Assembly (NCBI GenBank): GCA_030612365.1
Contig: JAUWOA010000010.1
Location: forward strand, 1 to 37,506
Direction of reading: 5' to 3'
DNA length: 37,506 bases
Origin: Candidatus Thorarchaeota archaeon
GTDB lineage: Archaea; Asgardarchaeota; Thorarchaeia; Thorarchaeales; Thorarchaeaceae
Below are positions 1,288-25,439 of this stretch, piece by piece. Both the position numbers and the translations under genes were made by a program. Positions within the stretch are counted from its first letter, which is position 1. Every line of letters begins with the position of its first letter. The notes beneath the pieces were generated by a model. It was not told the DNA's origin. It worked only from the letters and a program-made list of their open reading frames with translations, and made no database searches.

Positions 1288-1704
1288 ATGGGTCATGAAT
1301 TGGAGAACTTCCTCACACGCGTGATGACTTCAAAGAGAACGCTGAAGGAAGTCTACTATACGATAAGGGATTCCGAAACAGAATCTGACGCAAAGGAATT
1401 AGTTATCGCAACGATATCCTTGCAGAAGACATTGGAAGACCTACTAAACATAAAGAGGAAGGTTCCGGTCGCACGGAAAGTGCTAGAAGATCGAAAAGCA
1501 GTCCTATCACTGAGCAAGTGGACCAAGGGATTAACAAGAAGAGTCGATAGCTACGCCAAGAAGAAAGGCAAATTCAAACAGGATCACCTTCACAAGTACC
1601 AAGACAGCTTGCTTGAGTATATCGAGAAGATCGATGAGGAACTGGTGAAGTGGGTTATCGATATCGAAACTCTGAGTGAGATACCTCGCCCCCCAAAGAA
1701 GTAA
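1288..1704 (+). CDS. Hypothetical helical/coiled-coil protein
   Basis: 138-aa ORF, charged helical composition, same strand 43 bp after the Cas4-like gene. Confidence 0.6.
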   Translation: MGHELENFLTRVMTSKRTLKEVYYTIRDSETESDAKELVIATISLQKTLEDLLNIKRKVPVARKVLEDRKAVLSLSKWTKGLTRRVDSYAKKKGKFKQDHLHKYQDSLLEYIEKIDEELVKWVIDIETLSEIPRPPKK

Positions 1705-22366: not shown

Positions 22367-23806
22367 CTACTCCGCAGGGACCGCCAGTGAGATAGACTCT
22401 GTTTTGGCTATGTCGTCGTGCTTTATTGGAATCGGGTAGCTAAGACCTTTCCGAATCATGACGACTCCGATCAAAGCCACGATTCCAACAGAAGCAAGAG
22501 TCACAGGAAAGCCAGCCGTCGGTATTAGCCAGCCAAACAGCGCAATCTGAGGGATTGCGAAGATTGTTGCTATTGTAGGAGATAGAGAGTACATGCCGTT
22601 CCTGATCTTGTTCGGAATTACATCTAGTAGGATTCTCTGGGTTAGAATCTCAGCGAACCCACCGAACAATCCAGTCAGCGTGAATGTACACATTATCAAT
22701 AGCACCGGCAAAACCGAGCTAGCTGGCATCCGCATAATGGCAATGGTTGTGAAAGGCAGAATCACATCGATGATTGCCCCGCCTGCAGCAGGGGGAAAGA
22801 GAAACATCGTGATTGCCAACACGATGTAGAATAAGAAACCTCCAAACTGAAGGAGTCGGAACCGCGGAATCCATGTCTTCGGATCGAATTTCCTAGACCA
22901 AATGCCAGATCTTTCCTGCGTGAAGATTCCGGGAATGAATAGAATTGTTCTGAAACTTGAAACTGCTATGTCTGAAACCAAATATGAGAAGTACAGAGGG
23001 AAGAGAATCAGCTCGCCCCACACAAATCCTGCACTCCATATGACGCAGCCTCCAATGGTTACGTACATCATGAACTTATTGCTGAACAGGAAACTGACTC
23101 CAGACTTCAGTAGTGATGTGTACTCGTTCATGGTCGGTTTCTGTCTGGCAGCCTCTACTTCGGGGAAATCCTGCACCAGACGGAGCACGATTGCTGCTAT
23201 AACCACGCACAGCACTGCTTGAACTTGGAATACCCACGCCCTGCCAAGAATCGCGGCGATGATGCTTCCAGGTATCAGAGCTGCAGTTGCCACGAGTTGG
23301 AAGAGCATTCCAATCTTCCCCCAAAACACGCCATACTGCTTTCTATCCTTATCACCAGGCATCGCAACTCTGTAGTTATTGTCGAACCAAGCATTGAACG
23401 AGCCGCTGAGCTGGGAGCTTCCGATACCCATCAAAACATAGAGGCCAATCAGGAAGATGAAGGGAGTTGCACTGTTAACCAGCGAAACCATGTAGTATGC
23501 TAGGCCATAACAAAGGAATGCTGACGCTATCACGTAGCGTTGGCCAATCCAATCGCCTATCGCACCTGTGGGGTAATCCAACAAGGTTTGAACGACCATC
23601 TGAATGACAATCAGGAATCCTACGAGCATCATTCCATCAATGAAGGAGCCACCGCCCAAAGCCTCCGCCACGAAAACCATGAAGAAAGTGGTGCTAAGCT
23701 GTATTGTAGCCGCGACAACAGGAAGCAACATTGACATGATCTTAGCTAACCGCAGAATCTTGTCGTTTGCGTCAGTCAATCCAAAGAAGGTACCTATTTT
23801 GCTCAG
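22367..23806 (-). CDS. MFS transporter (paralog 2), probable CTG start at 23806
   Basis: Strong colinear similarity to paralog 1 (LLDYPTGAIGDWIGQRYVIASAF; FGGFAEILTQRILLDVIPNKIRNGMYSL). GGAGGTG 6 nt upstream of CTG, which aligns with Met1 of paralog 1. Confidence 0.88.
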   Translation of the reverse strand: MSKIGTFFGLTDANDKILRLAKIMSMLLPVVAATIQLSTTFFMVFVAEALGGGSFIDGMMLVGFLIVIQMVVQTLLDYPTGAIGDWIGQRYVIASAFLCYGLAYYMVSLVNSATPFIFLIGLYVLMGIGSSQLSGSFNAWFDNNYRVAMPGDKDRKQYGVFWGKIGMLFQLVATAALIPGSIIAAILGRAWVFQVQAVLCVVIAAIVLRLVQDFPEVEAARQKPTMNEYTSLLKSGVSFLFSNKFMMYVTIGGCVIWSAGFVWGELILFPLYFSYLVSDIAVSSFRTILFIPGIFTQERSGIWSRKFDPKTWIPRFRLLQFGGFLFYIVLAITMFLFPPAAGGAIIDVILPFTTIAIMRMPASSVLPVLLIMCTFTLTGLFGGFAEILTQRILLDVIPNKIRNGMYSLSPTIATIFAIPQIALFGWLIPTAGFPVTLASVGIVALIGVVMIRKGLSYPIPIKHDDIAKTESISLAVPAE

Positions 23807-23925
23807 TACAGGCACCTCCGCTCGTGACACCCATGGAATACCACTGACGTTAGAGTACCCTTGAAGGCGAATACAGCGCATTCCACGCAGGCTGCTGCAT
23901 CTATTGGTGTTGTTTCACTTCTCAT
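23803..23925 (-). CDS. Candidate 40-aa Cys-containing leader protein overlapping the MFS paralog 2 start
   Basis: Translation MRSETTPIDAAACVECAVFAFKGTLTSVVFHGCHERRCLY*; GAGGT 7 nt upstream of ATG; TGA stop overlaps the MFS CTG codon as CTGA. Confidence 0.4.
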   Translation of the reverse strand: MRSETTPIDAAACVECAVFAFKGTLTSVVFHGCHERRCLY

Positions 23926-23963
23926 TTCGTGTACCTCACATTCATTGGACTGGTCACTGTATA

Positions 23964-23977
23964 TCCCATTGATGGGA
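23964..23977. repeat. Perfect palindromic repeat TCCCAT-TG-ATGGGA next to a TATA-like sequence
   Basis: Abuts minus-strand GGGATATAC upstream of the 40-aa ORF/MFS paralog 2. Confidence 0.45.
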
Positions 23978-24016
23978 AATGGTGCCCACTTCTGTGACCA
24001 CTCGTGACCATGTAGT

Positions 24017-24124
24017 TTACCTTCTATAGGTAAAAGCGTAAGAAACCGCCTCAGTAGACTGAACCTTTGCGATCTTCCTTTTCTTCAGCATGGATGAATC
24101 TCGATTGTTTGATGCTAGGGCCAT
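24017..24124 (-). CDS. Microprotein A, 35 aa, basic
   Basis: MALASNNRDSSMLKKRKIAKVQSTEAVSYAFTYRR*; TAGGAGTG SD-like upstream; TATA ~62 bp upstream; paralogous ORF 260 bp away. Confidence 0.75.
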   Translation of the reverse strand: MALASNNRDSSMLKKRKIAKVQSTEAVSYAFTYRR

Positions 24125-24140
24125 ACTATTACACTCCTAA

Positions 24141-24155
24141 GTTTGTGTGACAAAC
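24141..24155. promoter_or_regulatory. Operator-like inverted repeat GTTTG-TGTGA-CAAAC
   Basis: Perfect 5-bp arms, located between TATA and ATG of microprotein A. Confidence 0.45.
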
Positions 24156-24186
24156 CTTTCTGTAGCCCATGGCTTGTACATGAATC

Positions 24187-24193
24187 TATATAA
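24187..24193 (-). promoter_or_regulatory. TATA box for microprotein A (minus strand CTTTATATAG)
   Basis: Canonical archaeal TATA-like sequence on the minus strand, about 62 bp from the ATG. Confidence 0.5.
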
Positions 24194-24194
24194 A

Positions 24195-24211
24195 GGTTTG
24201 CTCACCAAACC
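24195..24211. promoter_or_regulatory. Operator-like inverted repeat GGTTTG-CTCAC-CAAACC
   Basis: Perfect 6-bp arms with a 5-bp spacer, at the BRE side of the TATA box; same GTTTG-N5-CAAAC form as 24141-24155. Confidence 0.5.
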
Positions 24212-24275
24212 ATATTCTACGCAATCGTCCGAAGTTAAAACCCAATCAATCACTTGTCAGACACCTCTACACATT

Positions 24276-24383
24276 CTACCTTCTGTAGGCGAATGCGAAG
24301 CTGATTGCCTCAGTTGACTGAATCTTTGCGATCTTCTTGTTCTTGAGCACTGACGAGTTCCGGTTGTTTGTTGCTAGAGCCAT
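24276..24383 (-). CDS. Microprotein B, 35 aa, basic (paralog of A)
   Basis: MALATNNRNSSVLKNKKIAKIQSTEAISFAFAYRR*; 26/35 identical to A; GTGAG upstream; minus-strand TATA near 24415-24423. Confidence 0.75.
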   Translation of the reverse strand: MALATNNRNSSVLKNKKIAKIQSTEAISFAFAYRR

Positions 24384-24384
24384 T

Positions 24385-24400
24385 ATATCTCACAAGATAT
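24385..24400. repeat. Perfect inverted repeat ATATCT-CACA-AGATAT in the leader of microprotein B
   Basis: 6-bp arms immediately upstream of the microprotein B ATG, covering the possible SD. Confidence 0.5.
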
Positions 24401-24557
24401 CCTGCTCAGAATCAGTATATAATGCGAAGCCACAATTCAGGGTCACAGCAAAGGGTCACATCTTGTGACTATGTTTGGGGAGGCTGACAGTCAAACATAT
24501 TACGGACCATCTTGCGAACCAATGACATACGAAACCATCAATGAGAGGTTGTTGACG

Positions 24558-25439
24558 ATGGAGATAAAGAAGATAGCAGTTCTCGGAGCGGGTCAGATGG
24601 GCAATGGAATCGCCCAAGTCTGCGCGCAAGCCGGCTACGAGGTCACGATGCGAGATATCGCACAGAAATTCTTGGACAATGGCATGGCTACGATAAAGAA
24701 GAACCTAGAGAGAGGCCTCAAGAAAGGGAAAATCACTCAGGAAGAGGTTGACGCAGCTCTTGGCAGAGTTAAACCAGTTCTCGAAATGAAGGATGCTGTG
24801 AAGGATGCGGATCTCATCATCGAAGCAATTCCAGAGATTGTAAAGCTCAAGCTCGACACTTGGAATGAAGTTGACGAACTGGCTCCTAAGGAAGCGTACC
24901 TGGCATCCAATACGTCGAGCATCAGTATCACACAGATGGCTGCTGCAACGAAAAGGCCTGAAAAGTTCGTGGGCTGCCATTTCTTCAATCCAGTTCCTGT
25001 GATGGGCCTCATAGAAATTATCAAAGGCGCCGCAACGAATGACGAATCTGTTGATGTCATAAAGCAGCTCGCTAAGAAGCTGAACAAGCAAACCGTGATT
25101 GTCAATGAAGCGCCTGGCTTTGCAGTGAACCGCCTGCTAGTTCCAGCAATCAATGAAGCAATATTCGCGATTCAAGAGGGAGTTACCACGGTTGAGGATA
25201 TGGACCTCTCAATCAAGCTTGGGTTGAACTGGCCGATGGGTCCGCTCACATTGGCAGACTTCGTGGGTCTGGACACTCTGCTGTACATAAGCGACTACTT
25301 CGTCGATGAATTCAAGGACAGCAAGTACAGAGCACCGGCCCTACTGAGAAAGATGGTGCGCGCCGGATGGATGGGGCGAAAGACCCGAAAGGGCTTCTAC
25401 GATTACTCCGGTGATAAGCCCGTACCACAGCGTTTCTAG
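24558..25439 (+). CDS. 3-hydroxyacyl-CoA dehydrogenase (3-hydroxybutyryl-CoA dehydrogenase-like)
   Basis: IAVLGAGQMGNGIAQVCAQAGYEVTMRDI, SNTSSISITQMAAATKRPEKFVGCHFFNPVPVMGLIEII, GFAVNRLLVPAINEAI. Start at 24558 with GAGAGG upstream instead of ORF-track 24465. Confidence 0.95.
   Translation: MEIKKIAVLGAGQMGNGIAQVCAQAGYEVTMRDIAQKFLDNGMATIKKNLERGLKKGKITQEEVDAALGRVKPVLEMKDAVKDADLIIEAIPEIVKLKLDTWNEVDELAPKEAYLASNTSSISITQMAAATKRPEKFVGCHFFNPVPVMGLIEIIKGAATNDESVDVIKQLAKKLNKQTVIVNEAPGFAVNRLLVPAINEAIFAIQEGVTTVEDMDLSIKLGLNWPMGPLTLADFVGLDTLLYISDYFVDEFKDSKYRAPALLRKMVRAGWMGRKTRKGFYDYSGDKPVPQRF

Follow-up and report, generated by a model that had tools for sequence, protein, structure and literature searches.

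A lineage-specific family of putative regulated microproteins in Thorarchaeota, encoded in compact operons and linked to a winged-helix protein

Results

Two paralogous microprotein genes in the window

The window, the whole stretch of 37,506 nucleotides of a Candidatus Thorarchaeota archaeon that was analysed, carries on its minus strand two 35-codon open reading frames, A1 (24276–24383; MALATNNRNSSVLKNKKIAKIQSTEAISFAFAYRR; net charge +6, pI 11.1) and A2 (24017–24124; MALASNNRDSSMLKKRKIAKVQSTEAVSYAFTYRR; net charge +6, pI 10.6). An earlier note on this DNA had described them as paralogous basic microproteins under purifying selection; when we rechecked the window, their coordinates and sequences were confirmed, and our recount agrees that they align without gaps, that 26 of 35 residues are identical, and that 14 codons are identical, 12 differ synonymously and 9 nonsynonymously. 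Eighty of the 105 bases are shared, and the 25 differences are distributed 7, 3 and 15 over codon positions one, two and three. When the same number of changes was placed randomly, so few amino acid changes were obtained with P = 0.0002. The claim of selection on the protein is further borne out by the dN/dS of the pair, 0.16 (NG86), a value that, like those that follow, is based on ∼25 synonymous sites. Both reading frames are intact in their orthologues, whose dN/dS over four species, pooled from non-independent pairs, is 0.28 for A1 and 0.30 for A2; TCN as well as AGY codons occur at the conserved serines, and conservation therefore follows the protein.

Each ORF has, as also claimed, a TATA element and a Shine–Dalgarno (SD)-like sequence of its own, all on the minus strand. 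Upstream of A1 lies an operator that we assign to class 1 of the three classes described below (24441–24469), comprising the palindrome GTCACAAGATGTGAC (24455–24469) and a TGTGACC element, a layout that is repeated in other genera. It is followed by a TATA box ∼39 nt before the ATG (24416–24421) and by the SD-like GTGAG (24389–24393), in place of which relatives have TTGTGAA or GGTGAA. The TATA box of A2 (24187–24192), ∼70 nt before its ATG, has a class-2 operator on either side: the upstream copy, GGTTTGGTGAGCAAACC (24195–24211), is the sole exact match in this genome, and the second, GGTTTGTCACACAAACT (24140–24156), sits between the TATA box and the start, with the SD-like AGGAG at 24134–24138.

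Downstream of A2, and before a gene for an MFS transporter, come class-3 half sites, GGTCAC/GTGACC (23952–24009, minus strand), and behind these a 40-aa ORF (MRSETTPIDAAACVECAVFAF..., 23803–23925, minus strand) that overlaps the MFS start region, the order being A1, A2, class-3 sites, 40-aa ORF, MFS gene. The 40-aa ORF is intact in four species, with a pooled dN/dS of 0.33; no homology to A1, A2 or the B and C microproteins introduced below was shown for it, and it may be a further, diverged microORF. The first ATG of the longest MFS ORF (22367–23881, minus strand) falls inside the 40-aa ORF. Because the MFS gene of relatives starts at a GTG ∼203 nt behind A2, which corresponds to a position near 23814 in the window, this longest ORF is probably too long.

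A multi-copy family restricted to one taxonomic family

The earlier note had presented A1 and A2 as a pair. The two paralogues are real, but their locus is an atypical one within a multi-copy family whose members are normally arranged in A–B–C operons; the B and C partners, the SD sites embedded in the ORFs, a hairpin in C, the three operator classes and a divergent regulator had all been missed. Within the window genome a sequence search gave six matches, with E-values for further homologues down to 1.6e-11, and a profile search eight. Of the 47 genomes in the taxonomic family to which the window belongs, 46 had profile matches (E ≤ 1), up to 14 per genome, counts that come mostly from metagenome assemblies, in which some units lie at contig ends, and in which near-identical strains inflate the number of ORFs. 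When 228 genomes of the phylum were scanned, the 44 that were positive (E ≤ 0.01) all belonged to this one taxonomic family, and none of the 181 genomes of other Asgard families had an A or B relative at that threshold. Independently, C turned up in 37 genomes, every one from this taxonomic family, and had no relative in the other Asgard families searched. Two genomes that gave no profile match at E ≤ 0.01, G015 and G020, do have a unit at the regulator locus described below.

That no known family is recognisable, as the earlier note had put it, agrees with our library searches: A1, A2, B and C had no match in Pfam, nor A, B and C in NCBIfam and PHROGs; PADLOC gave no match, and A had none in the PDB by sequence or by fold, the fold query being a weak AlphaFold model. 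Ten related loci from several genera had no match at gathering score in Rfam 15. A literature search of partial coverage found no paper on these peptides, and this family of 26–40 aa proteins is apparently undescribed.

We considered whether the units might be cargo of mobile elements, and rejected this; phage and plasmid collections hold no relatives of the microproteins, and the synteny of single loci is kept across species and genera. One promoter-pattern match on a viral contig has no microprotein adjoining it and was judged to be due to chance.

Organization of the A–B–C units and translational coupling

At most loci a type-A ORF (33–37 aa) and a type-B ORF (26–35 aa) lie within a few bases of each other, often with a type-C ORF (29–42 aa) behind B. 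A follows the pattern MALAxNxR..S..K.....STxAI.YAY.YRR and B the pattern MALAK....K..ISTxAIA.AYFRR; both are basic (net charge +6 to +7, pI 10.6–11.8) and have in common the core STxAI..AY..RR at the C-terminal end. C has a variable body that ends in LTxEEVLALEAT, and is not basic. The terminal Arg-Arg of A and B is mostly encoded by CGGAGG, AGGAGA or AGGAGG, and these codons, together with the stop codon, usually constitute the SD sequence of the next ORF. ORF ends with a microORF behind them (n = 118) match GGAGGTGATC over a mean longest stretch of 5.64 nt, against 4.06 nt where none was found next (n = 84). The protein end is selected too, because A1 orthologues that have no B behind them keep the Arg-Arg, encoded as CGACGG or CGAAGG.

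The window locus departs from the usual arrangement in that A1 has a class-1 and A2 a class-2 operator, with neither B nor C, and it shows that A can persist without them. A likewise occurs without B and C at L092, and B occurs alone at L200, where genome G025 has two B-only units, MAIAKKIKN...AMAYSYFRR and MAIAKKIKK...AMAYNYFRR, with class-1 promoters. The retention of A where B and C are missing, in the window as in its orthologues, and of a solitary B at L200 indicates that the peptides matter individually.

Within the genus of the window, dN/dS of the orthologue sets is 0.28–0.49 for A, 0.30–0.67 for B and 0.48–0.80 for C, and all six serine codons, AGY among them, are found at the core serine across the family. 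Selection at the protein level is weaker on C than on A and B; in L070 and L073, which represent a single locus, the C stop codon has been lost, and in L072, at another locus, ten C codons. AlphaFold predicts a single helix over residues 8–33 of A; the model is weak (mean pLDDT 66.6, pTM 0.29), its C-terminal third having the best confidence. A and B have hydrophobic moments of 0.10–0.37 and GRAVY values of −0.35 to −0.66, and no transmembrane stretch was found in their sequences.

A covarying hairpin at the end of C

A hairpin of 15 bp, closed by a loop of four bases, is formed by the codons for EVLALEAT together with the stop codon; one instance is GAAGTGCTCGCGTTG-GAAG-CAACGTGAGCACTTC. Over 45 sequences, 84.9% of the cells of the hairpin alignment are paired, and 36 cells are changed on both sides, against 11.0 in shuffles. 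The covariation score is 0.268, compared with 0.170 in shuffles, none of 500 of which reached the observed value, and it is lost when the partner arm is slid out of register. Pairing (0.849) also exceeds that obtained by synonymous resampling of the coding arm (0.650; z = 17). The hairpin explains part of the conservation of C. The 30 nt behind it contain 45% T, compared with a background of 26% further on, and the hairpin probably marks the end of the transcript.

A strong covarying hairpin, together with SD sequences that explain most of the terminal Arg codons, might be taken to mean that the conserved element is a regulatory RNA in which the ORFs are incidental. We regard this as very improbable: dN/dS is below one in all sets, serines within the core switch between TCN and AGY codons, and Arg-Arg is kept by non-SD codons in A1 orthologues, to which may be added the lack of an Rfam match in the ten related loci.

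Neighbouring genes and the possibility of leader peptides

Single-locus synteny is stable across species and genera, and the neighbours of paralogous loci are unrelated. Roughly half of the units have a same-strand gene behind them, often for an MFS transporter; a TBP gene is among the genes adjoining units, as are others that, from our own reading of their sequences, we take to encode an EF-1A-like GTPase, Roadblock-like proteins and MFS transporters. No common function emerged among the neighbours. Odd translations behind some units suggested an association with tRNA genes; the loci contain no tRNA.

These neighbours bear on the possibility that the microORFs are leader peptides, that is, cis-acting uORFs that control the downstream gene, mostly an MFS gene, through translational coupling and the C hairpin. 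An MFS gene stands behind the units in the window, at the orthologous loci, at the locus represented by L060, L065, L070 and L073, and at L085, L090 and L091, and in L085 and L090 the MFS start is 6 nt after B. The SD sequence embedded in the ORF end and the overlap of the hairpin with the C stop codon would fit as well, and attenuators of the ermC, tnaC and mgtA type likewise combine short ORFs having conserved ends with translational coupling and a hairpin beside the stop codon. However, by our own count, the next gene of at least 150 aa is convergent at 18 of 38 loci, which have no gene to lead, and such a role is therefore not general. Unlike those attenuators, the present units lack a same-strand downstream gene at about half of the loci, and have several paralogous peptides in a row; their hairpin, with its terminator-like T-rich tract behind C, resembles the unit's own terminator. 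The unrelated neighbours of paralogous loci argue in the same direction, as does the retention of the A1 and A2 sequences where B, C and any coupled downstream member are missing. The microproteins may act as leader peptides at some MFS loci; as a general role we consider this unlikely.

Three operator classes

We distinguish three operator classes, of which each unit carries one, using hand-written patterns that 34 of 121 unit starts do not fit, many of these being ORFs inside a unit or one base off the pattern. Class 1 consists of GTCACA-N3-TGTGAC, TGTGACC and a TATA box, which in almost every class-1 unit lies at −38 to −41 relative to the A start, and this layout is seen before most units of other genera. 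The exact palindrome occurs five times in the 2.3-Mb window genome, three times before microprotein units, and 32 sites were found in seven other genomes, compared with two for a reversed control. Class 2 is GGTTTG-N5-CAAACC, of which five genomes have a single exact site each, and class 3 consists of GGTCAC/GTGACC half sites. Class-3-like sites precede A′–B units in L085 and L090, directly behind which the MFS gene is found. The coexistence of units belonging to different classes makes it probable that the peptides function in more than one response.

Class-1 sites are found at microprotein units, at a Bactofilin gene, at a multi-transmembrane gene and at a few unrelated places. The Bactofilin gene (PF04519) is under a class-1 operator in the window genome and four others, in several genera (L112, 1162–2838; L195–L197, L199 and L205), each time with an HTH_45 gene adjoining, and the winged-helix protein that this gene encodes is a candidate for the class-1 regulator. 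At L111 (about 1380–1520, minus strand) a 27-aa ORF, MALNRKAQRKRVVMEISRRNHSVGFGV, has a class-1 operator and lies upstream of a multi-transmembrane gene; L202 likewise has a class-1 operator before such a gene, and L203 a similar operator. In genome G013, class-2-like GGTTTG..CAAAC sites stand before a 3-hydroxyacyl-CoA dehydrogenase gene (L198, near 2844, minus strand) that resembles window positions 24555–25439, which suggests that fatty-acid metabolism belongs to the class-2 regulon.

Operator control bears, in addition, on whether the microproteins are small chromatin-, ribosome- or RNA-polymerase-binding proteins whose basic charge is itself their function, a narrow form of the suggestion in the earlier note that they may bind nucleic acid or ribosomes. 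The charge and pI of A and B would suit such a role, but C is not basic, control by operators favours an inducible over a housekeeping function, no relative was found in the PDB or Pfam, and charge alone is weak evidence. We think it unlikely that this is what the family does.

A winged-helix protein divergent from the most widely kept unit

Of the 47 genomes in the taxonomic family, 42 have a gene for a winged-helix protein of ∼250–290 aa, which also occurs in a single genome from a different family. We inspected 39 regulator loci, one genome being counted twice among them. At 34 of these loci an A/B unit, normally one per genome, is divergent from this gene, with the class-2 operator between the two; allowing up to two mismatches, a class-2 operator is present at 36 of the 39, compared with 1.2% for shuffled sequence. 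The protein has weak matches to HTH_20 (PF12840) and PadR-like (PF03551) domains, below the curated cut-off. Like regulators of those families, it is encoded divergently, with palindromic operators in the common intergenic region; it differs from them in having microproteins as its presumptive targets and in being lineage-specific as a family. The divergent layout and the position of the operator suggest that it is a repressor rather than an activator. The regulator-linked locus is the most widely kept copy of the units, from which we infer that it is the ancestral one. In the genome from another Asgard family (L243, G052), the regulator faces a gene other than a microprotein gene, whose 479-aa product we read as a zinc-ribbon/VWA-like protein, with a two-mismatch class-2 operator; this arrangement may represent an older regulon or a transfer.

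Small, basic, multi-copy proteins that seem to be tightly regulated, accompanied by a third peptide with an acidic end and by a regulator encoded nearby, might also constitute a toxin–antitoxin-like or antimicrobial module, in which A and B are cationic toxic peptides and C or the winged-helix protein neutralizes or regulates them. Type II toxin–antitoxin and other autoregulated modules similarly comprise small co-transcribed proteins, palindromic operators and an associated DNA-binding protein. In the present system, by contrast, the regulator is divergent and ∼250–290 aa long, A or B alone persists without C (window, L092, L200), and we recognised no toxic fold and no family match, whether in PADLOC, NCBIfam or PHROGs. 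The low hydrophobic moment of A and B, with no transmembrane stretch, also argues against such a module, as do the stable synteny across species and genera and the absence from phage and plasmid collections. We judge this explanation improbable.

Discussion

The reading that we prefer, to which we would give an even chance on the strength of the sequence comparisons, is that A1 and A2 are expressed members of a family-specific set of regulated microproteins, and act as trans-acting effectors with a C-terminal docking helix. The winged-helix regulator would repress its divergent unit and, in trans, other class-2 targets such as A2. A signal would then lead to short, strongly translated mRNAs, presumably terminated at the C hairpin, and the peptides would act in trans, their C-terminal helical motif docking on one common cellular partner, a protein or a ribonucleoprotein. 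The basic arm of A and B may add a contact with nucleic acid or an acidic surface, and paralogues under other operators would bring this effector activity to bear in further responses.

A further likeness is to the stress-made small regulatory proteins of bacteria of the MgtS, AcrZ and CydX type, which are also encoded by tiny, regulated ORFs with their own promoters and are easily missed in annotation. Those proteins act on a larger partner, and are mostly membrane proteins encoded by single genes. The Thorarchaeal peptides have no sequence relation to them, and differ in being apparently soluble and basic, in forming coupled A–B–C sets and in having many paralogues.

Thorarchaeota are Asgard archaea, which are close to the root of the eukaryotes, and almost nothing is known of their regulation. 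The present findings provide a concrete, testable set of regulator, operator and targets for almost all genomes of the group. These targets are a microprotein family that is missing from homology libraries and whose genes annotation may skip. The units are also unusually economical, in that the terminal Arg codons double as SD sequences and the last codons of C as a covarying hairpin. More tentatively, and with rather less confidence than we attach to the effector role itself, we propose a lineage-wide regulatory layer, in which the winged-helix regulator and two further regulons would drive A–B–C operons whose peptides converge, through their C-terminal docking motif, on a common machine, from an mRNA so compressed that the ends of its ORFs are the ribosome-binding sites of the next and the end of C is the terminator hairpin.
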